From a virus, in the IMG/VR virus record IMGVR_UViG_3300031638_000319, positions 1 through 26,158 of that record: a stretch of DNA of 26,158 nt; one strand, given 5' to 3'. Shown piece by piece: positions 1 through 18,814 of the stretch. Both the position numbers and the translations under genes were made by a program. Numbering within the stretch: position 1 is the stretch's first letter; every line of letters begins with the position of its first letter. The notes under the pieces are model-generated. The model was not told where the DNA came from. It worked only from the letters and a program-made list of their open reading frames with translations, and made no database searches.

Positions 1-210
1 GCTGTACAAATAGCAGCAATGGAAGAAAGACTGGGTGGTAAATTAGACTCTCAACACGGAATCCTAGTAGCCTTGATAGACAGAATTCGTAGTTTAGATA
101 ACGAAATTATACGCCAAGACACCATGATAAAAACAATCTTAGGCGTACCGCAGCTTATTAATATTGATAAGATTGCAAAAGCAGATAGAGATGACCAAAG
201 AAAAGACTAA
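1..210 (+). CDS. Unknown small protein, 5' end outside window
   Basis: The reading frame is open from base 1 and stops at 208-210, so the gene probably starts before the window. An in-frame ATG at 19 has no Shine-Dalgarno-like sequence before it, which also favours an upstream start. The visible 69 residues are hydrophilic and look helical, with regularly spaced Leu/Ile in the first 45 residues, suggesting a short coiled coil. There is no signal peptide or membrane segment. The 3' end overlaps the csgF-like gene by 20 bases, so the two are probably co-transcribed and translationally coupled. I do not recognise the family; it does not resemble CsgE. Confidence 0.5.
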   Translation, partial: AVQIAAMEERLGGKLDSQHGILVALIDRIRSLDNEIIRQDTMIKTILGVPQLINIDKIAKADRDDQRKD

Positions 211-715
211 CAAAGATAAAATTGATGATTTATTGTTTGTCATCTCTTCAATAATAATAGTTACAGCCGTTGGCCTAGCGGTTATGTTGAGTGGCGCTTT
301 AGAAGGTTCGCCTATTACACATGAGTTTAAAAACCCTAGCTTCAGCGGTATAGGTGCATCAGCTCACTACCTCACAATAGACGAACAAGAAACAAAAAGA
401 CGTGACGAACTGGCAGAAGAAATACAATCTGCTTTAGAAGAAATCCAGAGAGATATAGACAACAGTACTCTAAATAAATTCTTATCCAATCTACAGAGTA
501 GGATATTTAGCAACCTATCCAGAGACATTAGCGACATGCTCTTTTCAGAAGATGGAGGGACAGGTGGTACGATAGATTTAGAAGGCAATCAAATATCGTT
601 TAGTAACGATGGCGAGTACATCACGTTAACTGTTATAGACGAAAATGGCACTATTACTGAAATAGTAATACCAATTGGGATATTTGGGGTATGTACCGCA
701 GATTGTGGAGTATAG
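191..715 (+). CDS. csgF: CsgF-like curli assembly factor
   Basis: This is a 174-aa protein resembling CsgF, which docks in the CsgG pore and links it to fibre nucleation at the cell surface. A TTG 27 bases upstream is also possible, but the ATG at 191 gives a sensible signal segment. Residues 1-13 are charged, 14-33 form a hydrophobic helix, and cleavage is likely around residues 36-39. The putative mature N-terminus carries HEFKNPSFSG (residues 45-53), matching E. coli CsgF FQFRNPNFGG, the segment that plugs into the CsgG barrel. A central helix LNKFLSNLQSRIFSNL (94-109) parallels CsgF LDNFTQAIQSQILGGL. The C-terminal strands (about 126-162) parallel CsgF's beta domain. Differences from E. 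coli: a longer charged helix at 65-90 and a C-terminal CTADC motif (168-172). The last 25 bases overlap csgG. The assignment rests on remembered E. coli sequence, not an alignment search. Confidence 0.8.
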   Translation: MTKEKTNKDKIDDLLFVISSIIIVTAVGLAVMLSGALEGSPITHEFKNPSFSGIGASAHYLTIDEQETKRRDELAEEIQSALEEIQRDIDNSTLNKFLSNLQSRIFSNLSRDISDMLFSEDGGTGGTIDLEGNQISFSNDGEYITLTVIDENGTITEIVIPIGIFGVCTADCGV

Positions 716-1524
716 CCTTGATAGGCTTAATTACAGGTTGTGCTTCTTTTGCGCCACCTAGAGCCGTTGATTGCCATTTACCAGGTCTTATTTGTCCAGA
801 AGAAGCCAGGATAGAAAGAGTTACGTTACAAAAACTATTGGATTTACCTCCGCCAAAACAAAAAGCTGTTATAGCGGTTTACGAATTTAAAGACCTAACA
901 GGGCAACGCAAGCCTTCTAATAAGATGGCTTTGTTTTCTACAGCAGTTACTCAGGGAGCAGAAAATTATTTAATTGAAGCGCTTAGTAACGCAGGGAATG
1001 GAAATTGGTTTGTTGTAGTTGAAAGAAGTGGCTTGGATCATTTAACAAAAGAACGTCAATTAATTAAAAACACTAGAAAAACCTACGATGGAGAAAAAGG
1101 CAACAAGCTGAAACCTATCTTGTTTGCAGGTATAATCTTAGAAGGTGGTATAGTTTCTTACGAGTCAGACATTATGACTGGAGGAAATGGTGCAAGATAT
1201 TTGGGTATTGGTAACACCAATCAATACAGAAAGGACGATGTGACTGTATCTATTAGAGCAGTATTGGTTCAAACGGGTGAAGTTATGTTAAACACTACAG
1301 TAAGTAAGACTATACTAAGTGCAGGTGTAAATAGAGATATTTTTAGATTTACAGAACTGGGTACGGAGTTAGTAGAAATAGAAACAGGTTACACAAGAAC
1401 AGAAGCCACAGGCTATGCAACGAGATCTGCTATCGAGACGGCAGTTTATTCGTTAATACAGGAAGGTCTTGACAAACAATTGTGGGATTTTGATTATTCG
1501 CTTTTAAGCGAGGAGGTAAAATGA
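691..1524 (+). CDS. csgG: CsgG, curli secretion pore lipoprotein
   Basis: This is a 277-aa outer-membrane lipoprotein, the same length as E. coli CsgG, which forms a nonameric beta-barrel channel for curli subunits. The signal peptide ends in lipobox LITGC with Cys17 as the lipidated residue. Conserved CsgG blocks are clear: ERSGLDHLTKERQ (111-123), GGNGARYLGIG (164-174), SKTILS (205-210), FRF (218-220), RSAIETAVYSLIQEGLDKQL (245-264). FSTAV (82-86) aligns with the E. coli constriction loop and keeps the Phe equivalent to mature Phe56. The Tyr51 and Asn55 positions appear replaced: there is no Tyr in the KPSNKMAL segment, and Leu81 sits at the Asn55 position. Extra cysteines lie at 28 and 35. 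The start lies inside the csgF end, and the stop overlaps the next ATG (ATGA). I am very sure of the family; a CsgG-like pore in a phage genome is unusual. Confidence 0.95.
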   Translation: MYRRLWSIALIGLITGCASFAPPRAVDCHLPGLICPEEARIERVTLQKLLDLPPPKQKAVIAVYEFKDLTGQRKPSNKMALFSTAVTQGAENYLIEALSNAGNGNWFVVVERSGLDHLTKERQLIKNTRKTYDGEKGNKLKPILFAGIILEGGIVSYESDIMTGGNGARYLGIGNTNQYRKDDVTVSIRAVLVQTGEVMLNTTVSKTILSAGVNRDIFRFTELGTELVEIETGYTRTEATGYATRSAIETAVYSLIQEGLDKQLWDFDYSLLSEEVK

Positions 1525-2207
1525 AAAATCTAATTAAAATATTGTTATTCTGTTTTATGTCGTTTACATACGCGGGCAACAATGACATCTATTTGACTCA
1601 AAGTGGTGGTGGAGACTTTACACTTCTTATTGACCAGATAGGAAATACCAACATTATAGGTACATCAGGAGCTAGGGTTATAATGGCAGGCAGTTCTTTA
1701 GATGCTAACTTTAAACAACAAGGTAACTCAAATACTTTGGCAGCTAGTATTCTACAAGGCAACGCTTCCAGTTGGACTATGTGGCAAATAGGAGACTCTA
1801 ATACATCAACTATTACAGCAGGCGGTAGTGGGTCAGTAGGTTCATCTGATTTTGACTACACCGCTACGGGTAACTCAAACGTACTTACCTGGTTGCAAGG
1901 CAGCTCAAGTGCAGCCACAGGTGGTAACTTTGATGCAGCCTTAACAGGTAACAGCAACGACCTAAACATCAGAAGTGAAGTAATTGGTGCAATCAACAAC
2001 TGGGATATTGATGGTAACTCAAATGATATAGACGTTACTCAAATAGGAACGGATGACAAAGCCATTACATTTACGCTAGTAGGTGACAGCAACGATATTG
2101 ATATTGACCAGACAACCGCAGCATCAGGAGTTACAGACACTATCAGCTTGGTAGCCAATTCAACAAGTGGCAGTATAAATATTGACCAATGTGCAAGTGG
2201 CTGTTAG
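1521..2207 (+). CDS. Curlin-repeat secreted protein 1 (CsgA/CsgB-like)
   Basis: This is a 228-aa secreted amyloid-type protein and a probable fibre subunit. Residues 1-18 are a classic signal peptide ending FTYA before GNN. The mature protein is rich in G, N, S, T, D and Q and carries at least seven G-[ND]-[ST]-N turns, at residues 41, 68, 91, 117, 143, 165 and 188. Several are preceded by Q-x-G (QIGNTN, QQGNSN, QIGDSN). The spacing is 22-27 residues, as in the Q-x-G-x-x-N curlin repeat that forms one beta-solenoid rung. It ends in DQCASGC, a Cys-x3-Cys tail. A strong ribosome site (GAGGAGGT) lies inside the csgG end, with a 4-base ATGA overlap. Whether it is the major subunit (CsgA) or the nucleator (CsgB) cannot be told. 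Confidence 0.85.
   Translation: MKNLIKILLFCFMSFTYAGNNDIYLTQSGGGDFTLLIDQIGNTNIIGTSGARVIMAGSSLDANFKQQGNSNTLAASILQGNASSWTMWQIGDSNTSTITAGGSGSVGSSDFDYTATGNSNVLTWLQGSSSAATGGNFDAALTGNSNDLNIRSEVIGAINNWDIDGNSNDIDVTQIGTDDKAITFTLVGDSNDIDIDQTTAASGVTDTISLVANSTSGSINIDQCASGC
1641..2093 (+). repeat. Seven degenerate curlin repeats
   Basis: Coding repeats with a 66-81 base period and the core G-[ND]-[ST]-N, often preceded by Q-x. DNA identity between units is low outside the core, so this is protein-level rather than simple-sequence repetition. Confidence 0.75.
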
Positions 2208-3256
2208 TAGCCTTATTATCTAGTACAACTTATGCAGATATAGGTTCTATATCAGAACTGCGAGGCAACGGAGAAGTCTTACGCAGTACAGAGGGAGATA
2301 AGCTATTGGCAGAACTGTCTTTAGGCATTCTTAGTAATGACGACGTAAGAACTGGAGATGGCCGTATGGCGATACAGTTTTTAGACGATTCGGTACTTAA
2401 ACTTACAGAGCATTCTAAAATTGTAGTTGATGAATACATCTTTGACCCTAATCCTAAAAAATCTAAGTTAGCTTTAAGGATGGCTAGTGGTACTGCTAGA
2501 TTCATAACAGGTAAACTGGGTAAGATAGATAAAAAGAATATATCCATTAAAACTCCTTCAGCAACCATCTCAGTTTTAGGAACGGATTTCACCACAACAG
2601 TAGACGAGGTAGGTCGTAGCCTTATTATTCTTTTGCCTAATGAAGATGGTACAAGTTCAGGACAAATAACAGTAGAGACTTCAGCAGGTGTAGAAATTCT
2701 TAATAAGCCATTTCAAGCGACTATGGTAAGCGTTTCTGAGTCACCTCCTACCAAACCAGTAACTTTAATCAATATGACGTTAGGATTGATTAATAACCTT
2801 TTAATAATTAATCAACCAAAAGAAGTGCAAAAAGCAGTAGAAGAGCAAAATATTAAAAGCACCAACGTTTTAGACGTAGACTTTTTAGAAGAAAACTTTG
2901 ACGAAGATGAGTTGGAAGAGGACGAACTGGAAATAGACAGATTGGATATAGATTTGTTGTCTGTAGACTTTTTAATAGATCTGTTGGCTTTTATTGAAGA
3001 TGATGATTCAGGTGTGCAAAAAATAGGCGATGTAACTATAGAAGGTATTAAAGTTGGCTACGATTCTAAAGCTCAAGTGTATTCTTTTGTAGAAGGAGAA
3101 ATGTTGACGTTCTTTAGAAGTGTAGACAACACAGTAGATCTACAAATAGCAAAAGAAAGTGCCTACGAAATAAGACTATTGGTAGGCGGTAAACTTATAG
3201 ACATCACAGTAAACGGAGGGGGAGATGGTGAAATATTTATTAATCAGTCTGATTAG
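2189..3256 (+). CDS. FecR-domain periplasmic protein with acidic pentad repeat
   Basis: This is a 355-aa secreted protein. Residues 1-16 (MCKWLLVALLSSTTYA) are a signal peptide encoded within the 3' end of the preceding curlin gene (19-base overlap). Residues about 17-185 form a FecR domain: NDDVRTGDGRMAIQFLDDS (50-68), then IKTPSATISVLGTDF (120-134). FecR domains are known as periplasmic signalling or scaffold domains and are often found beside CHASE2 cyclases in bacteria. Residues 222-266 hold a strict five-residue period of Ile/Val/Phe/Leu, with an acidic residue two positions before most of them, giving a very acidic stretch. A C-terminal beta-rich segment (275-350) follows. It lies between the two curlin genes, and its last 32 bases contain the start of the second curlin. 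A role as organiser or sensor of curli export is inferred. Confidence 0.88.
   Translation: MCKWLLVALLSSTTYADIGSISELRGNGEVLRSTEGDKLLAELSLGILSNDDVRTGDGRMAIQFLDDSVLKLTEHSKIVVDEYIFDPNPKKSKLALRMASGTARFITGKLGKIDKKNISIKTPSATISVLGTDFTTTVDEVGRSLIILLPNEDGTSSGQITVETSAGVEILNKPFQATMVSVSESPPTKPVTLINMTLGLINNLLIINQPKEVQKAVEEQNIKSTNVLDVDFLEENFDEDELEEDELEIDRLDIDLLSVDFLIDLLAFIEDDDSGVQKIGDVTIEGIKVGYDSKAQVYSFVEGEMLTFFRSVDNTVDLQIAKESAYEIRLLVGGKLIDITVNGGGDGEIFINQSD
2852..2986 (+). repeat. Acidic pentad repeat in the FecR protein
   Basis: Residues I222, V227, F232, F237, L242, L247, L252, L257 and L262 recur every five positions. From 237 on, the residue two places before is Glu or Asp (E235, D240, D245, D250, D255, D260). 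At DNA level this is a 15-base period. It resembles a pentapeptide (right-handed quadrilateral helix) pattern but with Asp where Ala is usual. Confidence 0.65.
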
Positions 3257-4013
3257 CTTTAGTTGTATTATAAGTTCTGCTAATAATACAATTACACTGC
3301 AACACAAAGGCAGTTCATCTGTTATTAACATCAAGCAAGTAGGATATACAAACAACGCTACTGTTTATTGCGGTCTTAGTAACGGAGTTTACTCTACCCA
3401 TACTTGTACTAGGGCAGTAATCAATTTGAACACCACAGGGCATGGAAACACTACTAAAGCTTATTCACAATGGTCCAATCACACAGATAACGTATTTACC
3501 ATTACACAAAATGGCGACAACAATTTAGGTTACTTAGATTTAGACAAGAATGACAACGTAGGTATTATAAATCAAAACGGCAACTCAAATACTGGCATAG
3601 TTCTGATGGCTGGAGACGACAACGCTTACACCATCACCCAAACTGGCAACTCAAAGTACGGAAAAATATACAGTTTTGGAGATGACTCTGACGCTACAAT
3701 TACTCAATCAGGAACAGGAGCGCACAATGGCTACGTCTACAATTACAATTACGCAGACAACAACTCAAGCACCATAACGCAGTCTGGGAGTGGTTCACAC
3801 GATGCAGATATTTGGTGGTATGCAGATGCAGACAATGGCGTGGCTTCTATAACGCAATCAGGTTCAGGAGATCATACTGCTAGGCTTAATTTCTACACCG
3901 ATGATTACAACGTAGGCGTTACTCAATCAGGAGCTAACGATAAGTCATTTACTGCTACTTATAATTGCGTGAGCAGTTGTACCAAGACAGTTACAATAAC
4001 TCAATATGATTAA
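3225..4013 (+). CDS. Curlin-repeat secreted protein 2 (CsgB/CsgA-like)
   Basis: This is a 262-aa secreted amyloid-type protein. The signal peptide covers residues 1-19 (ending IISSA). The repeats are more regular than in the first curlin: [IV]-[TN]-Q-x-G motifs at residues 93, 115, 137, 159, 184, 209 and 232, plus a terminal ITQ at 258. Spacing is 22, 22, 22, 25, 25, 23 and 26. Repeats 4-6 read ITQSG(T/S)G and carry aromatic-rich linkers (YVYNYNY, IWWYADA). Two cysteine pairs are present: C49/C61 near the N-terminus and C248-x3-C252 near the C-terminus. Ending on a curlin half-repeat (TVTITQYD) recalls CsgB, but which subunit it is remains open. The purine-rich GGAGGGGGAG directly before ATG 3225 lies in the FecR gene end. 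The stop region overlaps the cyclase start by 8 bases. Confidence 0.88.
   Translation: MVKYLLISLISFSCIISSANNTITLQHKGSSSVINIKQVGYTNNATVYCGLSNGVYSTHTCTRAVINLNTTGHGNTTKAYSQWSNHTDNVFTITQNGDNNLGYLDLDKNDNVGIINQNGNSNTGIVLMAGDDNAYTITQTGNSKYGKIYSFGDDSDATITQSGTGAHNGYVYNYNYADNNSSTITQSGSGSHDADIWWYADADNGVASITQSGSGDHTARLNFYTDDYNVGVTQSGANDKSFTATYNCVSSCTKTVTITQYD
3501..4004 (+). repeat. Eight curlin repeats, 22-26 residue period
   Basis: ITQxG-centred coding repeats with periods of 66, 66, 66, 75, 75, 69 and 78 bases. The three central units share ITQSG-[ST]-G. This is a protein repeat, not a CRISPR array. Confidence 0.8.
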
Positions 4014-5787
4014 ACGTTTAATACCATTATCACTCATACTTATATTAGGAGCGCCTTTAGTCTTTCAGTCTACATTTACTGAAATTTTAAAACTTAAAAT
4101 ATTTGATGCCTTAATACCAGAACAACAAGAAAGTGGTTATTTTACTGTACTTAACATTACAGATGATGATATAAATAGAGAGGGTGGCTATCCGTTATCC
4201 AGGCAAAGGCTCTCTGAAATACAAACGCAGATTATAGATAGAGGAGCAATAGGTGTTGGATGGGTTGTCACCTTTCCTAATAAAAACAGAATTACTCAAA
4301 ACGGCGATCAATTGTTCGCAGAAGCTTTATCTAAAGCACCCAGCGTACTTGCTATGTTTGAAAACGACAAAGGCATCTACCCTAAAACGACAGGCACAGT
4401 CATACTTGGTGAAGATCAAGGTGGCACTTTAGCTGCTGGCGTTACGCAAAACATTTCAATATTAGCAAACAACGCAAATCAAGGTATAGCTGTAGCTAGG
4501 CCAGAAGTAGACTCTTTGGTAAGAAGATTGCCACTTTTATTAAGAACTCCCGATGGTTGGGTGCCTGCTTACGGAACAGAAGTATTAAAAGTTTTAGCAG
4601 GAGCAGACACTTACGTTATAAAAACTAATGATAATGGTCTGGAAGAAATACGAGTAAGAGGCTTGCCTCCAGTTCCTGTAGATTCACTTGGGAGAAAATG
4701 GATCAGTTGGGTAGACACTCCTCAAACAAATTTATTAGAAATGAACGTAAAAGATAAATTTGTATTTGTTGGGTTTACTGCCAAAGGAATTATGCCTCAA
4801 TTATCTACACCCGTTGGATATTTAGAGCCTCATAAAATTCAAACTGCTTTAGCAGAGTCAATTCTTATAGAAAACAGTCCCTTTGTTCCTGATTACGCAA
4901 TTGCTGTAGAAATTTTAATTTTTCTATTTTTTGTCTCTCTCACGTGGATAGTATTAAATGTTCTTGGGGTAACTAATGGCATAGTGACAGCGATAGGCAT
5001 AATGGTTGTAACAGGCGTTTACGGAGCTTATACAATCAATCAAGGCATTTTGATTGATGTTTCTTGGACTTTTGTATCAGAATTTATAACTGGGACCGTT
5101 GCGTTCTATTTAAACTACCGAGAGCAGTATAAATTGCGTCAACAGATTAAAAAACAATTTGAACATTATTTAGATCCTCGCCAAGTTAAACGATTGCAAG
5201 AAAATCCTGAGTTATTAAAATTGGGAGGCGAAAAAAAATACGCTACTTTTCTTTTTACTGACGTTAGGGGTTTTACTTCAATGTCTGAAAAATTAGAACC
5301 AGAACAAGTTACTTACATAATGAACAGAGCCTTAACCGCGCAACAGACCGCAGTACAAAAAAACGATGGCATGGTAGATAAGTATATAGGTGATGCAATG
5401 ATGGCAATATTTAACGCACCGTTAAATTTAGATTTCCATGAAAACAAAGCTTTGGATTGCGCAATAGATATACAAAAAAACATGGAAGATTTAAACATAG
5501 AATTAGAAGAAAAAGGAATACCACCAGTTGCCATAGGTATAGGCATTAATACAGGATATGCAGTTATAGGTAATATGGGTAGCGACACTAGGTTTGACTT
5601 TACAGCTATAGGAGATGCAGTTAATACCGCAGCAAGGTTAGAATCAGGAACAAAAGAAGCTGGTGTAGATGTGTTAATTGGTTACAACACTGCCATAAAG
5701 ACCGATTATAAGTTAGAATTATTACAACCTTTAAAGGTAAAAGGCAAGGATAAACCGTTGGAAGTGTATACATGGGATTTAAATTAG
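4006..5787 (+). CDS. CHASE2-domain class III adenylate cyclase
   Basis: This is a 593-aa inner-membrane signalling enzyme predicted to make cAMP from ATP. Domain order: N-terminal membrane anchor (4-21); periplasmic CHASE2 sensor (about 28-290, with ITDDDINREGGYPLSRQRL and FVFVGFTAKG); three membrane helices (about 298-320, 325-345, 350-370); linker; cyclase domain (410-590). Catalytic residues are present: metal-binding Asp419 (FTDVRGF) and Asp463 (KYIGDAMMAIF), Lys459 and Asp531/Thr533 (FDFTAIGDAVNTAAR) of the type that selects adenine, and transition-state Asn540 and Arg544. Nothing required for catalysis looks missing. It overlaps the curlin gene upstream (8 bases) and the coiled-coil gene downstream (16 bases). 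FecR plus CHASE2-cyclase is a known bacterial pairing; its place inside a phage curli operon is the oddity. Confidence 0.95.
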   Translation: MIKRLIPLSLILILGAPLVFQSTFTEILKLKIFDALIPEQQESGYFTVLNITDDDINREGGYPLSRQRLSEIQTQIIDRGAIGVGWVVTFPNKNRITQNGDQLFAEALSKAPSVLAMFENDKGIYPKTTGTVILGEDQGGTLAAGVTQNISILANNANQGIAVARPEVDSLVRRLPLLLRTPDGWVPAYGTEVLKVLAGADTYVIKTNDNGLEEIRVRGLPPVPVDSLGRKWISWVDTPQTNLLEMNVKDKFVFVGFTAKGIMPQLSTPVGYLEPHKIQTALAESILIENSPFVPDYAIAVEILIFLFFVSLTWIVLNVLGVTNGIVTAIGIMVVTGVYGAYTINQGILIDVSWTFVSEFITGTVAFYLNYREQYKLRQQIKKQFEHYLDPRQVKRLQENPELLKLGGEKKYATFLFTDVRGFTSMSEKLEPEQVTYIMNRALTAQQTAVQKNDGMVDKYIGDAMMAIFNAPLNLDFHENKALDCAIDIQKNMEDLNIELEEKGIPPVAIGIGINTGYAVIGNMGSDTRFDFTAIGDAVNTAARLESGTKEAGVDVLIGYNTAIKTDYKLELLQPLKVKGKDKPLEVYTWDLN

Positions 5788-6176
5788 CATTAATATTAGG
5801 AAGCTTACTGTTGGTAAGCGCTTCTGGGTCTTTGTACTATATTGATCGTTTGAATGACAAAATCTCTACGCTTAAAGGTAATCAGATAATTTTGGAAACA
5901 GAGATACAAAAACAAAACGATTCTATAAAGCAATATTTAGAAAACCAAAAGAATCAACAATTACAATTGCAACAACTTGAAGCTGATAAACAAGCTGCCA
6001 TGCAAGACGTTAACAGGTTACGCAAAACATTTGCTAAACACGACCTAGACGAATTGGCGTTAGCCAAACCAGGTCTTTTGCAAAAAAGAGTAAACAAAGC
6101 GTCTACCAGAGTTATGACTACGCTTGAAAAATTAACCAACCCCAATCAGTTTGATGAAAAACCTAGCAATAATTAG
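5772..6176 (+). CDS. Membrane-anchored coiled-coil protein, candidate i-spanin
   Basis: This is a 134-aa protein with one N-terminal membrane helix (residues 4-23) followed by a Gln/Lys/Leu-rich coiled coil (about 25-90) and a hydrophilic tail. This is the layout of Rz-type inner-membrane spanins, which with an outer-membrane lipoprotein fuse the two membranes at the end of phage lysis. Support comes from context: the next gene is an outer-membrane lipoprotein and the endolysin follows within 1 kb. An alternative is a structural or accessory subunit for the cyclase, whose 3' end it overlaps by 16 bases. There is no sequence-level recognition of a named family. Confidence 0.6.
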   Translation: MGFKLALILGSLLLVSASGSLYYIDRLNDKISTLKGNQIILETEIQKQNDSIKQYLENQKNQQLQLQQLEADKQAAMQDVNRLRKTFAKHDLDELALAKPGLLQKRVNKASTRVMTTLEKLTNPNQFDEKPSNN

Positions 6177-6519
6177 TCTAAGCATATTTTTGGCAAGCTG
6201 TAGCTTGATGGATTCTGTAAAACCTGTAGAGGTTAGAAGCATACAAGAAAGAGCGCCTTTGTATCATCCCCCTTTGCCATACCCTATGAGCTTGTCAAAA
6301 GTAGATTGGGAAATAATTACACCAGAGTTAATGCAAGAATATCTTGATTTGGTAGAAAAAGGCGAAGCACCTAGAAAAGCTTATTACGCACTTTCAAGTA
6401 AAGAATACGAAAATTTAAGTATGGATATGGCTGAAATAACCAGATATACCAAAGATATACTGTCAATAATTAAGTATTATAGAGAATTAGATAAACCAAA
6501 AGAGAAAGATAATGAGTAA
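6154..6519 (+). CDS. Outer-membrane lipoprotein, candidate o-spanin
   Basis: This is a 121-aa lipoprotein. The ATG at 6154 is preferred over an adjoining TTG at 6151. The signal peptide ends in lipobox LASC (Cys16), and the residue after Cys is Ser, so outer-membrane sorting is expected. A proline-rich segment follows (HPPLPYPMSLSKVDW). The C-terminal half is helical and holds LSSKEYENLSMDMAEITRYT and IIKYYREL, a pattern I associate with small conserved proteins of marine T7-like and pelagic phages. It overlaps the coiled-coil gene by 23 bases; nested or overlapping start sites are common in spanin pairs. The spanin role is inferred from location and topology. Confidence 0.65.
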   Translation: MKNLAIISLSIFLASCSLMDSVKPVEVRSIQERAPLYHPPLPYPMSLSKVDWEIITPELMQEYLDLVEKGEAPRKAYYALSSKEYENLSMDMAEITRYTKDILSIIKYYRELDKPKEKDNE

Positions 6520-6907
6520 ATCACCAGATGAATTTGTATACAGAGCTACTTTGGATCGTATTGTTGATGGAGATACGTTTGATTGTATATTAGATCTTGG
6601 ATTTAACGTTAAGTTGCATAAACAAAGAGTTAGGCTTGCAGGAATAGATACACCAGAAAGCAGAACTAGAAACTTACCAGAAAAAGCACTTGGTTTAAAG
6701 GCCAAAGAAAGACTCAAAGAACTTTGCACTGGTACATTTAAACTTAAATCACTTGGGAAAGGTAAATATGGACGGATTCTTGGCATTCCTTATACAGAAG
6801 ATGGCAAAGATATTTGCGCCACTCTTATCAAAGAAAAACACGCAGTTGAATACTGGGGCGGAACTAAGACAGGAAAAATCTTGGAAGACGGAACTTGGGG
6901 AGAATAA
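6512..6907 (+). CDS. Staphylococcal-nuclease-like (thermonuclease) protein
   Basis: This is a 131-aa SNase-domain protein. DRIVDGDTFDC (15-25), VRLAGIDTPES (40-50) and GKYGRILG (84-91) are the three SNase signature blocks. Predicted catalytic or metal residues are Asp21, Arg41, Asp46 and Glu49, with Arg88 as the second catalytic Arg (equivalents of D21, R35, D40, E43 and R87 in nuclease A). No signal peptide is visible, so it should act in the cytoplasm, for example on host DNA or RNA. It overlaps the lipoprotein gene by 8 bases. Its last codons (GGAACTTGGGGAG) supply the ribosome site for the lysozyme. Confidence 0.9.
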   Translation: MSKSPDEFVYRATLDRIVDGDTFDCILDLGFNVKLHKQRVRLAGIDTPESRTRNLPEKALGLKAKERLKELCTGTFKLKSLGKGKYGRILGIPYTEDGKDICATLIKEKHAVEYWGGTKTGKILEDGTWGE

Positions 6908-6908
6908 T

Positions 6909-7352
6909 ATGAACGCATCAAAAGAAGGTATTGAATTAATTAAAAATTTTGAAGGGTGCGAACTAAAAGCATACCAAGACAGTGTAGGAGTTTGGACAAT
7001 TGGATACGGACACACCAAAGAAGTAAAGGAAGGTGATGAAATAAACCAAGAACACGCAGAGTTTATGCTTACCGAAGAAATGCCTGAGTACGAAGGTTAT
7101 ATAAATAGTATGGTTGAAGTACCTTTAGAACAACATCAGTTTGATGCTTTGTGTGCTTGGGTATACAACTTAGGCCCAACAAACTTAAAAAACTCTACTC
7201 TTTTACATGAGTTAAATTCTAGTAATTACAAAGAAGTTCCAAACCAAATAAAACGTTGGAATAAAGCAGGAGGCGAAGTTTTGCAAGGATTGGTAAGGAG
7301 AAGAGAAGCAGAAGCTTTGTTGTTTGAAAAAAAAGAATGGAGAAACGTATAA
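6909..7352 (+). CDS. Endolysin, T4-type lysozyme (GH24)
   Basis: This is a 147-aa lysozyme that cleaves the glycan strands of peptidoglycan. The ATG at 6909, one base after the nuclease stop, has GGGGAG six bases upstream; the longer frame back to 6753 merely overlaps the nuclease gene. Catalytic triad Glu15 (NFEGCELKAY), Asp24 and Thr30 fits the E-x8-D-x5-T spacing, with GYGHT at 32-36. CAWVYNLGP and the C-terminal RRREAEALLFE block are typical of the family. It has no signal peptide or signal-anchor, so it needs a holin or another route to the periplasm. Together with the two preceding envelope proteins it forms the lysis cassette. Confidence 0.95.
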   Translation: MNASKEGIELIKNFEGCELKAYQDSVGVWTIGYGHTKEVKEGDEINQEHAEFMLTEEMPEYEGYINSMVEVPLEQHQFDALCAWVYNLGPTNLKNSTLLHELNSSNYKEVPNQIKRWNKAGGEVLQGLVRRREAEALLFEKKEWRNV

Positions 7353-9218
7353 ATGGCATACACCAAATTAACACTAAGACCTGGAATAAACAGAGAAGGT
7401 ACGGCTTACGATAACGAGGGCGGTTGGTTTGACGGAAATTTAATTCGTTTTAGAAACGGACACGTAGAAAAATTTGGCGGTTGGGAAAAATTAAGTTCCA
7501 ATACTTTTTTAGGAACAACAAGAGCTTTACACAATTGGATGAGCTTGGGTAGCAATCTTTATTTAGGATTAGGCACTACTCTTAAATATTACGTAAAAGA
7601 AGGAGACGTTTACAACGACGTTACTCCTATACGTGCAACCACTACTAATGGTATTGTTTTTGCAGCGACTAATGGCTCTTCTATTTTAACTGTTACCGAC
7701 TCTTCGCATGGTGTTGTGGTAAATGATTTTGTAACCATATCAGGAGCTGCTACTTTAGGGGGTGTTGTAACCGCTGTTGTACTCAATCAAGAATATCAAG
7801 TTTCTTCAGTTACTTCAGCAAACGTTTATACAATAGTTGCTAAAGACACTAGCGGTGAAACAGTAACAGCCAACTCTAGCGACAGTGGTAACGGTGGTGC
7901 TGGTGTGGATGGTGCTTATCAAATAAACGTAGGATTAGATGCCTATGTACCTTCTGCTGGTTGGGGATCAGGGACTTGGGGATCAAGCACCTTTGGATCA
8001 ACAAGTGCTATTAGTGCTAGCGGACAGTTAAGACTTTGGACGCACGATAATTTTGGTGAAGACTTAATCATTAATCCGCGTGGCGGTGGTATCTACAAGT
8101 GGGTACAAAACGATGGAACCGATACAAGAGCAGTAGATTTATCTGGTATAAGCGGAGCCAATTTGGTACCGACACTTGGTTTGCAAGTAATTACATCAGA
8201 AGTTGACAGGCATTTAATAGTATTGGGAGCCGATCCTATTGTTGGCAGCTCAAGAACTGGATCTATAGACCCGATGCTTATTTCTTTTTCTGACCAAGAA
8301 AACGCATTAGAATTTGAACCATTAATAACAAATACCGCAGGATCTTTACGTTTATCAAGCGGTTCTAAAATTGTAGGAGCTGTTAAGTCCAGACAAGAAA
8401 TAGTTATATTTAGTGATACTTCTGTTTACAGCATGCAATTTGTAGGTCCTCCATTTACTTTTGCTGTTAATTTAATAAACGAAGCTACAGGTTTAATAGG
8501 GCCTAAAGCAGCCGTTACAGGGGACGCTGGCATATATTTTATGAGTTACGGAAGTTTTTATATTTACAACGGCAGTGTGCAAAAATTACCTTGTTCTGTA
8601 TTGGATTACGTATTTTCTGATTTTAACGTTGGACAAGCTTTTAAAATACATGCTTTTACCAATAGCGAAAATAATGAAGTGGGTTGGTTCTATCCTTCTT
8701 CTTCTTCAGATGAAATAGATCGTTACGTTATTTACAACACACAAGAACAAGTTTGGTATTACGGAAATTTAGAAAGACACGCTTGGTTAGATTCTGGAGT
8801 AGAAAACTTTCCACAAGCTACAAACGACAATTACGTTTACCAACACGAAATAGGTTTCAACGACGATGGTAGTGCTATGACCAATGTTTTTATAGAGTCT
8901 AGCGACTTTGATATAGGAGACGGCGATCAATTTTCGTCCATATCTTCTATCATACCTGACATACGTTTTTTACAAGACGTCAACTCAGGTTCAGTAAACG
9001 TAGTAACCAAAGTAAGGAACTATCCAGGCGAGTCTTTAACCACCAAAGCTACATCAGAAATTAGCTCCAATACAACAAAAGCCAATATTAGAGCCAGAGG
9101 CAGGCAGGCTGTTGTAAGAGTAGAATCAAATGACGACCAATCAAATAGTGGTAATGTTTCTTTGGGATGGCGATTGGGTGCTACTAGACTAGACGTAAAA
9201 ACCGATGGCAGAAGATGA
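7353..9218 (+). CDS. P22 gp10-like tail hub / packaged-DNA stabilisation protein
   Basis: This is a 621-aa virion protein that starts immediately after the lysozyme stop. The N-terminus (LTLRPGINREGTAYDNEGGW, FDGNLIRFRNGHVEKFGGW) is characteristic of the P22 gp10-like family, which closes the portal and bridges to the tail needle in short-tailed phages. Residues about 93-190 form a Thr/Ser/Val-rich insertion seen in marine-phage homologues. WGSGTWGSSTFGS (about 203-215) is a common family motif, and IFSDTSVYSMQFVGPPFTF lies in the propeller-like core. P22 gp10 is shorter, consistent with the insertion. The ATGA overlap (9215-9218) couples it to the next gene. Only the family-level role is supported. 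Confidence 0.85.
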   Translation: MAYTKLTLRPGINREGTAYDNEGGWFDGNLIRFRNGHVEKFGGWEKLSSNTFLGTTRALHNWMSLGSNLYLGLGTTLKYYVKEGDVYNDVTPIRATTTNGIVFAATNGSSILTVTDSSHGVVVNDFVTISGAATLGGVVTAVVLNQEYQVSSVTSANVYTIVAKDTSGETVTANSSDSGNGGAGVDGAYQINVGLDAYVPSAGWGSGTWGSSTFGSTSAISASGQLRLWTHDNFGEDLIINPRGGGIYKWVQNDGTDTRAVDLSGISGANLVPTLGLQVITSEVDRHLIVLGADPIVGSSRTGSIDPMLISFSDQENALEFEPLITNTAGSLRLSSGSKIVGAVKSRQEIVIFSDTSVYSMQFVGPPFTFAVNLINEATGLIGPKAAVTGDAGIYFMSYGSFYIYNGSVQKLPCSVLDYVFSDFNVGQAFKIHAFTNSENNEVGWFYPSSSSDEIDRYVIYNTQEQVWYYGNLERHAWLDSGVENFPQATNDNYVYQHEIGFNDDGSAMTNVFIESSDFDIGDGDQFSSISSIIPDIRFLQDVNSGSVNVVTKVRNYPGESLTTKATSEISSNTTKANIRARGRQAVVRVESNDDQSNSGNVSLGWRLGATRLDVKTDGRR

Positions 9219-9586
9219 GCAAACTGCTAGAAACTAGACTTCCTATTGAGTCTAATGAGTTTGCTAATCGAGACACTTTTAATCGTTTGGTTAGAATACT
9301 AGAAATTAATCTAGGAACTTTTGATCCCGACTCAACACCTCAATACAACGACCAACAAATCAGCACTTTGGCTTTTTCTACTGGTGATGTAATATGGAAC
9401 ACATCCATTGGTGTATTACAGGTTTATATAGGTAATAGGTGGATACAGCTACATACTCCAGCAAATCCGCAGGGGTACGAACTGCAAGCATCGGTAGGCT
9501 CTGTTTCTATTCAAACAAATGGAAACGTCACCGTAAGTTTAACTAGCTCCGTCTCAGGATGGAACATAGAAAATTGGTACTCATAG
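9215..9586 (+). CDS. Small putative tail-associated protein
   Basis: This is a 123-aa protein with no signal peptide. The N-terminal half is charged and alpha-helical. The C-terminal half is beta-rich with aromatic-Trp strands (VIWNTSIGVLQVYIGNRWIQ) and ends SGWNIENWYS. The region reads like a short tail-spike or fibre attachment segment. The start overlaps the gp10-like stop (ATGA), so the two are probably made together. I recognise no named family; virion function is inferred from position between tail-hub and internal-protein genes. Confidence 0.6.
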   Translation: MSKLLETRLPIESNEFANRDTFNRLVRILEINLGTFDPDSTPQYNDQQISTLAFSTGDVIWNTSIGVLQVYIGNRWIQLHTPANPQGYELQASVGSVSIQTNGNVTVSLTSSVSGWNIENWYS

Positions 9587-9590
9587 TAAT

Positions 9591-10346
9591 ATGCAAGCAG
9601 TTAAAAATGAACAATTTACAGAAAACTATCAAGTAAAGAATCTTTTACTTACGCAACCTGCTGATTGGTATATTGATGAAAATACCCTTAAAGCGGTTAA
9701 AGAATCTGAAAAAGATTTAAGTTTATTTTTTAAATCTGAAGGGCAAAAAGATTTACCTAATATGCCAATTAATAAATGTTTAACAGAACATTTTTCTGAT
9801 GTTTACAGCATACCGTTTTTTTCAGAAATATTTTGCGATATATTTAAGGATGAAATGAAAAATATGGAAAGTTATTTTAACTTTACTACTAATCCAGAAG
9901 AAGACGAACTTAGACAAATACCAGAAATGGTATTGCAAGAATGTGTTCCTGAAATATACAGGTCTTTAATGTATGTAGTTTTAACCATTTTAAATCCTAT
10001 TTTTATAGCTATTTGGGGCAGAACAATATCTGAGGGTGGTATTCAAGTAGCTAATTACAATTTAATAGACAAACAACAAGGTGCGTGGCACCACGATTCT
10101 AGTTCCGATATAAGTGTGGTAGTCCCTTTAAATACAGGCGATTACAAGGGTGGTGGGACAGAATTTTCAAAACGAGGAACTTTAAAACCTATACCTGTAG
10201 GTAACGCTTTAATGTTTCCAAGCTTTACCCACATGCACCGAGGAATGGCAGTAGAGTCTGGAAATAGATACCTATTGGTATTTTGGTTAGTAAATAAACA
10301 ATCAGAAGAAGACAAAAAAAACAATTTTAATTTCATTTATAATTAA
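9591..10346 (+). CDS. 2-oxoglutarate/Fe(II)-dependent oxygenase (prolyl-4-hydroxylase type)
   Basis: This is a 251-aa protein, probably a hydroxylase using 2-oxoglutarate and O2. The iron triad is visible: His167-x-Asp169 (AWHHDSSSDISVVVPLN) and distal His216 (HMHRGMAV). Arg226 (GNRYLLVFWL) lies ten residues on, the usual 2-oxoglutarate-binding position. A Gly-rich turn GDYKGGGTEF (183-192) before the second half is typical of the P4H fold. The first 140 residues are not recognised. Such oxygenases are frequent in marine phages, but their substrates are mostly unknown. Position among virion genes suggests it might modify a structural protein; this is inference. Confidence 0.85.
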   Translation: MQAVKNEQFTENYQVKNLLLTQPADWYIDENTLKAVKESEKDLSLFFKSEGQKDLPNMPINKCLTEHFSDVYSIPFFSEIFCDIFKDEMKNMESYFNFTTNPEEDELRQIPEMVLQECVPEIYRSLMYVVLTILNPIFIAIWGRTISEGGIQVANYNLIDKQQGAWHHDSSSDISVVVPLNTGDYKGGGTEFSKRGTLKPIPVGNALMFPSFTHMHRGMAVESGNRYLLVFWLVNKQSEEDKKNNFNFIYN

Positions 10347-10380
10347 CAGAAACCAATATAAAGGGTAAAATCAAAAGAAT

Positions 10381-12003
10381 ATGAACAGAATAGACAATAG
10401 CGGAACTGGAATAGCCGCACTAGGAAGAGACGAAGATCAATACATGGCTCACGTTGCTTTAGGGGAAATGGTTGTACCACCAGTTATTACGCCAGAAACT
10501 AGGCTGAGACTTTTGCAAGAAATGCAGGACGCTGGCCTTGATCCATCTGAGTATACCGTAGGGGATCGTATGTCCATCAATCCAATTACGGGTTTGCCTG
10601 AATTTGGATTTTTAAGCAAAGCTTGGAAAGGAATTAAAAAAGTTATTAAAGTTATAGCGCCTATAGCCGCTGTTATACCTGGACCTTGGCAATCATTTGC
10701 AGTTGTTTACAACAAAGCAAACGCCGTAAACAATATTGCGAAAGGAGACGGCGGATTAGGAGACATACTTACTTTAGGAGCTGGTGGATCGCAAAAATTG
10801 TTTGGAGATAGCGGAGCTATAAAAAATATTACATCTGGAGGTTTTAAAACAGCAGGGGGTGGTATTACAAATGCTTTTAAAAATATTGGACAAGTTGCCA
10901 AATTAGATAATTTAGGAAATGTTATAGAAGGAGAAACTGTATTTAATCCTTTTCAATACAGTAAAGAATTAGGAAAAACATACCTTGATGACCAAAAACA
11001 AGGATACGGAGGCTTCTTTAGTGATGTAGGAGGTGCTGATACAATTGGAGGACAGGCTTTCAATACCGTTACAAATACTGGAAATCCTATGAACGCTGCA
11101 TTCACTCCTGGTATGGAAGGCCAAATGTTACAAACTTCTGGACAACCATCAGCAGGAGGACAACCATCAGCAGAGGATAAACAAGCTTGGTTAACCAGTA
11201 ACTTTGATTTAGGAACAGAAAAAATAGTAAATGGACAATCGGTTATACAACATAAAGATGGTAACTTTTACACTCCAGAACAAGCTTTACAGATGTACAA
11301 TCAAACTATTAATCAAACTGCATCTTCTGGAGGCACCCCAGATTGGATAAAAGCTATTGGCGACAAATTTGGATTTGGTGGGCGCAGCGGTTTGAGAGAT
11401 GCTTATGGGGGAGATGGAAAAACACCTGGATTTATAAAAGGAATTGAAGACACTATAAAAGGTCAAACAGATCCTAACAGCAACAGTTTGTTTGCTGGCG
11501 GAGGTATGGGCGGTCTAGGTTCTTTAGGACTAGCAGGGTTCTTGGGTAAAATGGCTTACGACTCGGCTAAGAAAAAAGAAGGTGGAATATCTGAAACACC
11601 TAAAATAACAATGGATCAACTTGGCAGATACCAATTGGCATCCGATTTAGGGACTGGCGGTACTCGAAGTGAGTTTGGATTGGCCCCTGCACCTGTTAAA
11701 TTAACCGTAGCAAACGGAGGTCCAATAGACAACAGGATGTACTATGCCGAAGGCGGTATAGCCGAACTGGATATGCGTGAGGGTGGTGAATCAGAAGGAC
11801 CTGGAACGGGTACTTCAGACGACATACCAGCGATGCTATCCGATGGTGAGTTTGTAATGACAGCAGCAGCTACTAAAGGAGCAGGTTCTTTCAACGTAAA
11901 CAAAACCAAATCAGGTATTGAACTAATATCTGGCGGAAAGTCATCTAGAGACAAAGGCGTGGAAAACATGCGTGAATTAATGAACATATTTGAGGCAGTT
12001 TAA
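10381..12003 (+). CDS. Large Gly-rich virion-type protein (540 aa)
   Basis: The N-terminus carries a DEDQYMAHVALGEMVVPP segment and GDRMSINPITGLPEFGFLSK. A short amphipathic/hydrophobic region lies around 80-100 (KVIKVIAPIAAVIPGPWQSF). The middle is Gly/Asn-rich, and the C-terminus contains GTGTSDDIPAMLSDGEFVMT, a motif I know as recurrent in marine podovirus and pelagiphage structural proteins. No enzyme motif is seen. It is likely an internal virion or ejection protein. It contains an 18-base tandem duplication (SGQPSAGGQPSA). A 34-base gap separates it from the oxygenase with no clear Shine-Dalgarno close to the ATG. The stop overlaps the next start (TAATG). Confidence 0.7.
   Translation: MNRIDNSGTGIAALGRDEDQYMAHVALGEMVVPPVITPETRLRLLQEMQDAGLDPSEYTVGDRMSINPITGLPEFGFLSKAWKGIKKVIKVIAPIAAVIPGPWQSFAVVYNKANAVNNIAKGDGGLGDILTLGAGGSQKLFGDSGAIKNITSGGFKTAGGGITNAFKNIGQVAKLDNLGNVIEGETVFNPFQYSKELGKTYLDDQKQGYGGFFSDVGGADTIGGQAFNTVTNTGNPMNAAFTPGMEGQMLQTSGQPSAGGQPSAEDKQAWLTSNFDLGTEKIVNGQSVIQHKDGNFYTPEQALQMYNQTINQTASSGGTPDWIKAIGDKFGFGGRSGLRDAYGGDGKTPGFIKGIEDTIKGQTDPNSNSLFAGGGMGGLGSLGLAGFLGKMAYDSAKKKEGGISETPKITMDQLGRYQLASDLGTGGTRSEFGLAPAPVKLTVANGGPIDNRMYYAEGGIAELDMREGGESEGPGTGTSDDIPAMLSDGEFVMTAAATKGAGSFNVNKTKSGIELISGGKSSRDKGVENMRELMNIFEAV
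11140..11175 (+). repeat. 18-base tandem duplication in coding sequence
   Basis: GGACAACCATCAGCAGGA is followed at once by GGACAACCATCAGCAGAG (16 of 18 identical). In frame, it duplicates the hexapeptide core GQPSA. It is recent enough to be nearly identical. Confidence 0.85.
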
Positions 12004-13142
12004 TGGCAGAAGTACCAGCATCAATTGATCCTGTATTAACAAAAATAGACAGAAACGAATATCTTTCTGATCCTTTTGTACGTGAAGCGTATTTTGGGTC
12101 GCCTGACACTCCAGGTTTAATAGCTCAAGCCACTAGCGCTGCTAACAGAGCTTACGGACAGCCAGCTATTATGAGGCAGACCGCAGGTTTGTCGCCTTTA
12201 GAAAAAGCGGCGATGCAAGGTGCTTACGGAGGAATTGGATCTTACCAACCTTATACGGATGCTAATTTATTTGGCATACAAGAAGGTATGGGCATGTCCA
12301 GACGTGCTGGTGAATTGGCTCAACCTTATTTTTCTGGTCAAGAACAATATTTAGGAGCTGCTACCGATACTGCTCGTCAAGCCGCTGGTATGCAGTTTGA
12401 TCCAAACTTAACCAAACAATTTTACGATCCGTTTGAAAACAGAGTAGTACAACAAACAATAGACGACGCATTTAAAGGTGGTGAAATAGCCGACATATCG
12501 GCCAGAGCGCAAAACATAAGTAGCGGCGGAGAATCGGCTTTTGGTTCTAGAGCAAGACTGTCTGCCGACGAAAGAAGGGCAGCTTTAGGTAGGGGTATTG
12601 GAGAGTCATTAGCAGCAATACGTTCTGGAGGTTTCCAACAAGCGCAAAATACTGCACTAGGAGAATTTGGTAGGCAAGTGGGTGCCAGAGAAAGATTGGC
12701 AGGTAACTTATCAAGTTACGGTAATCAATTGGGTAATATCGGAGCAGCCAGATCAGGACTTGCAAGAGATATAGGTTCCGATGTTGCTGGATACGGCGGG
12801 CAAATAGGAAATCTAGGACGAACAGAATACGACTTGGCTTCTTCTCAAAGAAGAGAATTGTCAGACTTAGGAGGAATAGCAAGAGGTGTCAAAGAGACTG
12901 GACTTGGAAGACAATACGATCAAGCTCAACAGAATAGGTTTGCACCTACTCAAGCAGCCAGTTACGTACAAGGATTCTTGCCTCAATATCAAGGTGGTAA
13001 AACTCAAATCAATAAAACGTATGGCATGCCAATAGATCCTTACTCTCAAGGCATAGGAACGTTCTTAACTGCATACGGATCAATGAATCCTAATAGTGCA
13101 GCAGGAAATGCAGCAACTACAGTTGGTGGAGGATACACCTAG
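12003..13142 (+). CDS. Virion-associated protein (379 aa)
   Basis: This protein is rich in Gly, Ala, Arg, Gln and Ser with long predicted helices. Repeated G-x-x-x-Y-G-x-Q-(L/I)-G-N elements (SSYGNQLGNIGAA, AGYGGQIGNLGR) lie at about 237-265. The N-terminus has FVREAYFGSPDTPGLI, and the C-terminus has Q-G-F-L-P-Q-Y-Q-G-G. I have seen this layout in uncharacterised structural proteins next to ejection proteins in marine podoviruses. There is no enzymatic motif, signal peptide or membrane segment. It overlaps the preceding stop by one base and ends two bases before the next gene, so the three are co-translated in series. Confidence 0.65.
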   Translation: MAEVPASIDPVLTKIDRNEYLSDPFVREAYFGSPDTPGLIAQATSAANRAYGQPAIMRQTAGLSPLEKAAMQGAYGGIGSYQPYTDANLFGIQEGMGMSRRAGELAQPYFSGQEQYLGAATDTARQAAGMQFDPNLTKQFYDPFENRVVQQTIDDAFKGGEIADISARAQNISSGGESAFGSRARLSADERRAALGRGIGESLAAIRSGGFQQAQNTALGEFGRQVGARERLAGNLSSYGNQLGNIGAARSGLARDIGSDVAGYGGQIGNLGRTEYDLASSQRRELSDLGGIARGVKETGLGRQYDQAQQNRFAPTQAASYVQGFLPQYQGGKTQINKTYGMPIDPYSQGIGTFLTAYGSMNPNSAAGNAATTVGGGYT

Positions 13143-13144
13143 AA

Positions 13145-15250: not shown

Positions 15251-15251
15251 A

Positions 15252-18200: not shown

Positions 18201-18350
18201 CAAACTTCTAATATAAGTTTACCTAAAATTAATTCCGTTACCCCGCCGCCAAGAACAGCAGGTGTCAGCAGAAGTCTACTAGGCGGATCTATTGCTAACG
18301 AAGATATAGCAAACCGTAGACAGAACCAAGGGATAGCAGGACTGGTTTAA
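15252..18350 (+). CDS. Very large internal virion / ejection protein (1032 aa)
   Basis: The N-terminus IETPDGRIIEVEGEPGQEEK is a small beta domain often found at the start of long phage internal virion proteins. Hydrophobic or glycine-rich segments occur at about 125-140 and 190-212, and a stronger one at about 866-900 (SLIAGAVAVNAFNIAMFPTL). These would suit insertion into a host membrane during DNA ejection. The middle is long and alpha-helical with many Lys/Asp/Glu. The C-terminus has a proline turn (TPPPRTAGVSRSLLGGS) and ends in IANRRQNQGIAGLV, another recurrent marine-phage tail sequence. It is the last gene of the 18-kb rightward block, and its stop codon overlaps that of the convergent nuclease gene. 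Confidence 0.7.
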   Translation: MIYEIETPDGRIIEVEGEPGQEEKAIQTVKQYLAKDAAGKVFNESNFDYETGIDNLLLRGQLDMAETQEEKEGVLQKYVGSQGFIYDANGKLAITPVGQKRLNLEPSDKNIIVDEEGMSIGDFADFAGTIGPIAGAIAALTPQGRAFKFLKPFFKNDRLVRSAAVALGSAGGKGVEEASELLLGTQKQEADEIAKDLAIEGVIGGLSQGIFEVAGAGFVGMLGRKADAGDIDIIRAIAQGADPKEVEFLATRLGREPSFKDILKAQQEGVISSFTPAAVSQSGLKRAIAGRIQAASETVFGRTERDKRLIQYGTQRIQNFLKKQDDVTLSLDDFSQAIQTGRLTKGEIDAILGNLSKTSVKSNQALNEYINNAIKLIDDGAFTAGSDRIAVGQTLRDQLKTLYDAKFAYTEVKNAAGELVKEPGEFVKKSQLIDDFLNAKGLQAWKGNVGLKVDDLIEFIDKATTKGPGLELLQALEGVQGGSITTIRRILKNVEEEGISLEALNQLRGTFLTIGRAAPTQSKEITRFISTITKQIDDIFDKLESGVGVDEMIAKFNSSPKRPFNPNQKKIDAESLKAAVKMIRGFNKNYQEAMQPFNNVIVTDIRQAARRGAYDVDEIFQKIIKKNQPNILRGVLDAIPGGNAKNAIKKDLQETFVREALEHPNVINIETGQVNPTAFAKFFRDKLGSTQKVLFDDIPDLPRILSDFNKINRSFKPERLEKVLDSIKDRGLKNSLDDFIEGENALHAAEVDQLFKRIRSAEPDEIINLVFRNGQATNIAKLKQTLDPSTFKNVQQDSMRELLRVAKGPGKRVDEVFNPEALERALNSKGDDALREMFNEPGKPDTVAALRDLVRDLRVMTVSEGGGAGSLIAGAVAVNAFNIAMFPTLIQLGIMKTIFMQPAVVRRLAKADKDSINIVMQAFKDAVRLAGPITLGEGVVDTAGEASNFIEEKTQQTLEDSGIDLGDAAQKLNQDFKELKIPNQTSNISLPKINSVTPPPRTAGVSRSLLGGSIANEDIANRRQNQGIAGLV

Positions 18351-18814
18351 GTTAACCCCAACTCTTCCCGATCAAATCCTAACGCGTGGTCTGACAGACA
18401 GACCAATTCATCTTTACTTAAATGTATGTATGGCTCTGAGTCCTCTGGCAGTTGCGGTTCAGCTATTGTACCGAAACGTACGTCGTAGACTTTGGTTCTG
18501 TCCCAAGTGTGTGAATACACGCTGTCCGTCATAGCAAACACCAGGACGAATGGTTGGTTGGTAGCCAAAGACAGAGCAGCTCCCATACGCAACTTGGATG
18601 CGCTCAGTAACAAAGTGTCGTACTTATTAATACCAAAGCTACGGCATTTAACTTCTAACCAGAACGAAGACTCCTTGCTCTCGCACCAATAATCTAGGCC
18701 GTAACTGACTGGTAGCTTATGACACCTTACGCCCCATAATCCTTCTATAAATCCAGCAACACGCTCTTCGCGCTTTTGATCGCTGATCGTTTCCATCTTC
18801 GGTTTCGCGTTCAT
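18347..18814 (-). CDS. PD-(D/E)XK nuclease-like protein
   Basis: The start is set by AAGGAG six bases before the ATG at 18814; an ATG 15 bases further upstream lies on the Shine-Dalgarno itself. The product is 155 aa. YGLDYWCE and FWLEVKC give the Asp (41) ... Glu-x-Lys (54-56) pattern of the PD-(D/E)XK fold, with Asp and Glu 13 residues apart. The C-terminal third is Glu/Leu-rich and unrecognised. It is the last gene of the leftward primase operon. The first 98 bases overlap the membrane-protein gene in another frame. Cellular role is unknown: possibly recombination, host-DNA attack or defence evasion. Confidence 0.75.
   Translation of the reverse strand: MNAKPKMETISDQKREERVAGFIEGLWGVRCHKLPVSYGLDYWCESKESSFWLEVKCRSFGINKYDTLLLSASKLRMGAALSLATNQPFVLVFAMTDSVYSHTWDRTKVYDVRFGTIAEPQLPEDSEPYIHLSKDELVCLSDHALGFDREELGLT

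Follow-up and report, generated by a model that had tools for sequence, protein, structure and literature searches.

A curli export module with a candidate cyclic AMP-producing envelope sensor in a phage contig, and its relatives in phages and bacteria

In the curli, or type VIII, secretion system (T8SS), CsgG and CsgF form the pore and CsgF seeds the fibres. Modules of this kind are already known in ocean phages, the closest being that of Wittmers et al. 2022 (PMC9599517), found in nine pelagipodophage genomes and in pelagimyophages with the order (upstream gene)-csgF-csgG-csgA/B-fecR-csgA/B-adenylate cyclase. In the passages of that paper that deal with the module, one or two histidine kinases precede csgF, FecR is named an iron-dependent regulator, FecR, kinase and cyclase are placed outside bacterial T8SS operons, and the module is given an alphaproteobacterial origin. 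We describe here the same gene order in a marine phage, the virus record IMGVR_UViG_3300031638_000319 (positions 1 to 26,158, the whole 26,158-base stretch analysed, hereafter the window), which carries in succession a partial upstream gene (orf0), CsgF, CsgG, curlin 1, a FecR-domain protein, curlin 2, a CHASE2-adenylate cyclase, Rz, Rz1, an SNase, a lysozyme and a tail protein. From these sequences we consider it fairly probable that the window encodes a complete minimal type VIII export module together with an envelope sensor that produces cyclic AMP (cAMP), acting late in infection, with adhesion as the likeliest gain. Parts of the published reading of such modules look wrong or incomplete.

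The myophages Melnitz (MZ577097) and HTVC008M (KC465899) share the module gene order, their CsgF, CsgG, curlins, FecR and cyclase being 27-48% identical to those of the window and short stretches of orf0 50%; unlike the window, neither record has a lysis gene annotated beside the module. An earlier note on this DNA, made without database searches, had mentioned csgG/csgF-like genes in marine methylotroph phages; the phage concerned is Melnitz, as described in the relevant passages of its paper (PMC9004378). The note's guess that nobody had yet described the full set, two curlins and signalling genes included, was wrong at the genomic level, in view of the module passages of Wittmers et al. The Melnitz paper, where it treats these genes, states that csgA and csgB are lacking, which conflicts with its own record, in which two curlin-repeat proteins and FecR (L049, 8689-11483), and also the cyclase, are annotated. 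The E. coli curli system has CsgG, CsgF and curlin repeats in common with the window, but FecR and the cyclase are additions in the window; Pfam recognised no CsgC, CsgD or CsgE in the ten open reading frames (ORFs) of 191-7352, a search that a diverged CsgE would escape.

Pore and fibre genes

The CsgG outer-membrane lipoprotein pore (691..1524, + strand, as for all features from orf0 to the tail protein) matched PF03783 at 6.4e-53, with 179.6 bits against a cut-off of 20.8, and its N-terminus holds a lipobox-like LITGC, identified by eye. Its family profile reached the solved CsgG chain 3x2r_D, which we take to be that of E. coli, at 9.7e-68, and both proteins are 277 residues long, in agreement with the E. 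coli-length lipoprotein described in the earlier note. CsgF (191..715) matched PF10614 at 1.9e-15 (57.6 bits against a cut-off of 25.8) and phrog_35372 at 1.3e-41. The solved CsgF was reached weakly, at E 0.06 by profile and E 0.38 when CsgF alone was compared with the PDB. The NP-x-F segment that the note had pointed to does align with the solved protein (FRNPNF against FKNPSF), at that E of 0.06 only; in CsgF this is the segment that binds CsgG.

The fibre subunits are represented by curlin 1 (1521..2207; PF07012 at 4.8e-6, one repeat, with a signal-peptide-like start) and curlin 2 (3225..4013; PF07012 at 2.6e-9, four Pfam repeats), both of which exceed the curated cut-off of the family. The motif [ILV]xQxGxx[NDH] occurs three times in curlin 1 and five times in curlin 2, against shuffle means of 0.05 and 0.04, and none of 5000 shuffles reached the observed count for either protein. 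The curlin 1 family profile matched Pontibacter CsgA 8c50 at 8.9e-6, and when the curlin 1 model (predicted local distance difference test, pLDDT, 86.6) was compared by VIA, the top match was this same solved CsgA, at Z 18.9 with 192 residues aligned and a root-mean-square deviation (rmsd) of 8.5; a further match was 8enq at Z 12.5. The modelled fold match taken alone is not specific, since SufB/SufD-type entries follow closely at Z 16-17. Curlin 2 had no match among PDB sequences up to E 1.

The domain matches support a phage-borne curli export set of pore and fibre genes, as the earlier note had proposed, and each of the four genes it named was found, with a Pfam match, where it had placed it. 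Its interval of 191-4013 was too short: orf0 (1-210) and the CHASE2-cyclase (4006-5787) also belong to the module.

The FecR-CHASE2 pair and the gene upstream of csgF

The two additions to the curli set are a putatively secreted FecR-domain protein (2189..3256; PF04773 at 8.9e-13) and a CHASE2-class III adenylate cyclase (4006..5787; PF05226 at 1.2e-22 and PF00211 at 3.3e-19). The model of the FecR protein, with a mean pLDDT of 74 and residues 224-273 under 50, matched the cell-surface signalling domain of PupR (6ovk) with Z 16.4 over 138 residues and an rmsd of 2.4, and the cell-surface anchoring domain 5ix9 with Z 7.4, which lies in a range that the tool calls common. FecR anti-sigma regulators have an N-terminal cytoplasmic anti-sigma domain ahead of a membrane helix. 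The window protein passes from a start that is signal-peptide-like by eye directly into the FecR domain, and a role as anti-sigma or iron regulator is therefore unsupported; nor was a sigma factor recognised by Pfam among the ten ORFs scanned.

The cyclase matched the solved CyaB 3r5g at 4.1e-30 and has catalytic-type motifs at residues 417 (FTDVRGF), 458 (DKYIGD) and 529 (GDAVNTAARLE). Tested for the residues that we take to form the class III active site (two metal Asp, Lys, Asn and Arg), it holds all of them. In the order to which Hyphomonas TMED17 belongs, 150 genomes held 20 places with FecR-like genes, and at 15 of these a CHASE2 gene was no more than 3 kb away, against about 0.1 expected by a rough formula; the Hyphomonas curli operon itself is one of the 15. 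In Campylobacterota, CHASE2-cyclase genes are clustered with a FecR-domain protein, as in the window, and one shared pathway has been suggested; those clusters also include a phosphodiesterase and a TPR protein, and the passages concerned do not mention curli (PMC9239204). For Sinorhizobium, the relevant passage lists a FecR-domain protein as one target of Clr, a cAMP regulator (PMC5498481). Because of this adjacency, the Campylobacterota clusters and the Clr target, the pair is best read as a candidate envelope-sensing cAMP unit.

Comparison of the cyclases shows that the catalytic half has been swapped in five contigs (L002, L005, L010, L016 and L017), where it is 52-54% identical to that of the window and the CHASE2 half 75-82%; in their sister contigs both halves are 73-86% identical. 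The swapped halves still hold the active-site Asp, Lys, Asp, Asn and Arg. L007-L009 and L011 perhaps also have a cyclase half of another type (CHASE2 61%, cyclase 41%). Five myophage cyclases (L037, L039, L040, L041 and L049, the last being Melnitz) have Ser in place of the usual catalytic Asn (VSTAARIE). In L032, the phage row nearest the bacterial operons described below, the cyclase is encoded by two separate ORFs (3515-5581), with an endolysin downstream.

Only the 3′ part of orf0 (1..210; phrog_18771 at 2.8e-8) lies in the window, its 5′ end being outside, and this part is 100% identical to L016. Every one of 46 phage loci has one or two copies of orf0 within 900 bases upstream of csgF, with an E value of at most 7e-10 for the best copy; they are mostly 80-116 residues long, with one N-terminal hydrophobic helix followed by a charged, coiled-coil-like remainder, and a complete one lies at 4247-4597 of L002. 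Pfam showed no kinase domain up to E 1 in five complete relatives, which speaks against a histidine kinase as the upstream gene. Judged by its shared position and copy number, the published "histidine kinase" is probably orf0. When two orf0 queries were run against 50,697 phage records at a threshold of E 0.01, only 6 matched, namely HTVC008M and Melnitz records, all of them module carriers; a search of the three bacterial operons (L051, L052 and L055) at E 1e-5 brought up no orf0. These features suggest that orf0 is a small membrane protein of phage modules only. Four of nine relatives have a weak likeness to the holin family phrog_4898 (0.0002-0.06).

Phage setting, spread among phages and bacterial relatives

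The run from orf0 to the tail protein has neighbours that touch or overlap, + strand genes extend to 18,350, and positions 1-18500 contain 6 terminator-like sites against 11.2 in shuffled sequence. Directly after the cyclase come Rz-like (5772..6176; phrog_739 at 1.4e-11) and Rz1-like (6151..6519; phrog_812 at 5.4e-16) spanins, an SNase-like endonuclease (6512..6907; PF00565 at 3.1e-12), a phage lysozyme (6753..7352; PF00959 at 7e-49 from residue 64, the true start probably being an ATG near 6906) and a tail/stabilisation protein (7353..9218; phrog_3287 at 1.2e-62), confirming the placement of the module beside lysis and tail genes in one gene run. The earlier note had allowed for a chimeric assembly of bacterial and phage DNA, with 6.5-7.3 kb as the suspect stretch. 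This was rejected, since another contig, L006 (11.9 kb), has the same order across it (CsgF, CsgG, curlin, FecR, curlin, adenylate cyclase, Rz, Rz1, SNase, lysozyme, tail, p9215, 2OG, tmp); its genes are 62-91% identical to those of the window overall and, in the suspect stretch, 82% in Rz1, 91% in SNase, 62% in lysozyme and 83% in the tail protein.

Farther downstream lie a possible tape-measure protein, a primase, Sak4, SSB, a resolvase, exonuclease VIII and a DNA methyltransferase, and because of these genes the window contig is that of a phage. It is probably a podophage, in view of the relatives of its tail protein in DSL-LC04 and HTVC023P. The tail protein is 31-35% identical to those of HTVC023P-type podophages, in which the other window genes are mostly unmatched in the compared stretches; the primase, Sak4, SSB, RusA and exonuclease genes had no match in HTVC023P, DSL-LC04 or 023Pt_psg01 beyond the first 15 kb. 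The start of the DNA methyltransferase gene (25830-26156) has a counterpart at 83% identity in L008 and L009, where it lies downstream of the module. Megablast of 1-25000 against the 50,697 phage records, from which the window's own record was possibly excluded, found no near-identical DNA. The window adds one more carrier to those of a known module, and does so in a phage that megablast left unmatched in this set.

The 47 loci of phages that we compared came from 44 viral contigs, HTVC008M, Melnitz and the window. In the 28 that extend 6 kb beyond csgG, curlin 1, FecR and the cyclase were always present, and a second curlin-like ORF, recognised by a loose motif, lay between FecR and the cyclase in 27; FecR was found in 40 of 40 loci extending 2.6 kb. 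Median ratios of non-synonymous to synonymous divergence (dN/dS), which are rough because dS was high (medians 0.65-0.91) even with only pairs at a synonymous proportion (pS) of 0.05-0.60, were 0.131 for CsgF, 0.106 for CsgG, 0.107 for curlin 1, 0.098 for FecR, 0.043 for curlin 2 and 0.105 for the cyclase. Purifying selection acts on each of these six genes; constraint is strongest on curlin 2, and on curlin 1 it equals that on the pore. In L001, L008 and L009 the module proteins are 74-88% identical to those of the window (the cyclase 54% in L008 and L009), and the flanks resemble DSL-LC04/HTVC023P-type replication genes. Since window-like module proteins occur with such flanks, the module moves between phage backgrounds.

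A further 13 contigs with the module (L053, L054, L056-L062, L064-L066 and L068) had been binned into metagenome-assembled genomes (MAGs) of Flavobacteriaceae, Synechococcus, Pirellulales, Pelagibacter and others. They are probably phage contigs in bacterial MAGs: orf0 is present in 11, and the flanks of eight have a PHROG match or a Melnitz/HTVC008M-like gene, although some of these families are possibly cellular too. No phage-type flank gene was found in L057 and L062, and L053, L060 and L066 offered no flank ORF to scan.

Bacterial operons with the full signalling set are rare. From 422 CsgG relatives on genome contigs, 80 were kept as loci, 11 of which have both fecR and a cyclase; eight of the 11 carry orf0 and look like phage contigs. 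In the remaining three, csgF, csgG, one or more curlins, fecR and the cyclase stand in a row: L051 and L052 are Caulobacteraceae MAG contigs of 82 and 32 kb, and L055 belongs to Hyphomonas sp. TMED17 (705 kb); five flank genes sampled in L051 and L055 are ordinary bacterial enzymes. These alphaproteobacterial contigs contradict the published absence of FecR and cyclase from bacterial T8SS operons. In the order of Hyphomonas TMED17 (genome G002), presumably Caulobacterales, csgF is present in 34 of 299 genomes, and neither fecR nor a cyclase lay near it in any of the 33 other loci, examined over stretches of 5-16 kb, some ending at contig ends. A general link of fecR and cyclase with bacterial curli was accordingly rejected in this order.

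Trees were built from 55 of 160 CsgG rows, chosen by hand, and from CsgG plus CsgF in 46 loci, out of 48 selected for having the two genes (L072 and L073 dropped out), with the 13 MAG-binned contigs counted as phage. OR851715 was left out; this 1.5 kb record (OR851715.1), named as a Salmonella phage and containing a csgG-like stretch, is unlikely to be a phage. The phage-type rows, including the three bacterial operons, form one clade (97/95 in the CsgG tree, 100/100 and 100/99 in two CsgG plus CsgF trees), a grouping that was named only after the first tree was inspected and in which some end branches are long. Within it the bacterial operons lie beside phage contig L032 (100/98, 100/100 and 100/99). 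Phage rows as a clade of their own were rejected (p 0.0007 and 0.0017, and 5.3e-5 in the 33 rows that remain without the MAG-binned contigs). A single clade of the three alphaproteobacterial CsgG rows was not rejected (p 0.084), and for this reason one and two transfers cannot be told apart. This nesting differs from the published alphaproteobacterial origin and supports, without proving, a phage-to-bacterium transfer of the curli operon, the alternative being several gains by phages. In the literature covered, which took in few subscription papers, the passages concerned describe no non-kinase orf0, no bacterial csg-fecR-cyclase operon and no transfer of one from phage to bacterium.

Possible functions and their implications

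Under the reading we favour, curlins would leave the cell through CsgG late in infection and CsgF would seed them, so that amyloid forms on the infected cell; periplasmic FecR would inform CHASE2 about the condition of the envelope or of export, and the cyclase would then set the cAMP level. With lower confidence, the gain would be adhesion, in which infected cells, debris, virions and neighbouring hosts are held together. The proposal draws on the domain matches, the constancy of the gene set among phage loci, the purifying selection, the active-site residues retained in the swapped cyclase halves, the FecR-CHASE2 adjacency and the scarcity of terminator-like sites. Several observations weigh against it. 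Late expression is suggested by a single line of evidence, the lysis and tail neighbours; the CsgE of the E. coli system was not recognised; Foldseek alone gave the curlin 1 model no match at E 0.001 and hence no link to curlins; the output of the five Ser-bearing myophage cyclases may be weak; and clumping was not seen in cytograms or transmission electron microscopy of Melnitz, according to the passages reporting them (PMC9004378).

The same anatomy would serve superinfection exclusion, proposed in part of Wittmers et al. 2022 (PMC9599517), in which curli on the infected cell mask receptors and block competing phages. We regard this as unlikely, because a module that runs on one strand into lysis and tail genes is probably expressed late, at a stage when keeping other phages out would bring less. 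A lysis-timing role, put forward in passages of Buchholz 2022 on Melnitz, would make CsgG-CsgF a gated release trigger and the module part of the lysis cassette. The spanins directly after the cyclase in the window, a window-Rz-like gene after the cyclase in 15 of 44 viral loci, the L032 endolysin (4.2e-27) with a weak holin match (0.001) and the weak holin likeness of orf0 in four of nine relatives all fit such a role. Yet a pore-only lysis device is a pore without fibre genes, and the window has two curlins; curlins are present wherever coverage suffices, and their constraint is contrary to the pore-only prediction. The window already has spanins and a lysozyme, with a holin unrecognised in 191-7352, and in the records of HTVC008M and Melnitz the module stands without an annotated lysis gene next to it. 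Moreover, the 2.6 kb after the cyclase in L001, L008 and L009 contain no spanin or lysozyme gene like those of the window, a comparison that covers likeness to window genes only. We consider a lysis-timing pore quite improbable. Least credible is an uptake pore, raised in passages of Zaragoza-Solas 2020 and Wittmers 2022, in which an open CsgG admits nutrients or cofactors and the curlins are secondary; the unrecognised CsgE gate would suit it, but CsgF, two conserved curlins and the FecR-cyclase pair would be left unexplained, and we give it very little credence.

Beyond late export and sensing, we put forward more speculatively, as a possibility that we rather doubt, that a secreted-amyloid device of seven parts, with an envelope sensor of its own, was put together and spread by phages and passed from them to bacteria. 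The phage-only orf0 would then couple the export of curlins to late infection, and might do so as a switch of holin type between secretion and lysis.

Three corrections to the published account are proposed: that orf0 takes the place of the kinase, that a FecR-CHASE2 pair replaces iron regulation, and that the bacterial operons are nested among phages. Together they would make of what had been listed as auxiliary genes a circuit for export and sensing that can be tested, and call the published direction of transfer into question. If the device works, a lytic phage would equip planktonic hosts with amyloid on their surface and with a sensor acting through cAMP, which would affect aggregation and sinking in the ocean as well as phage encounter.

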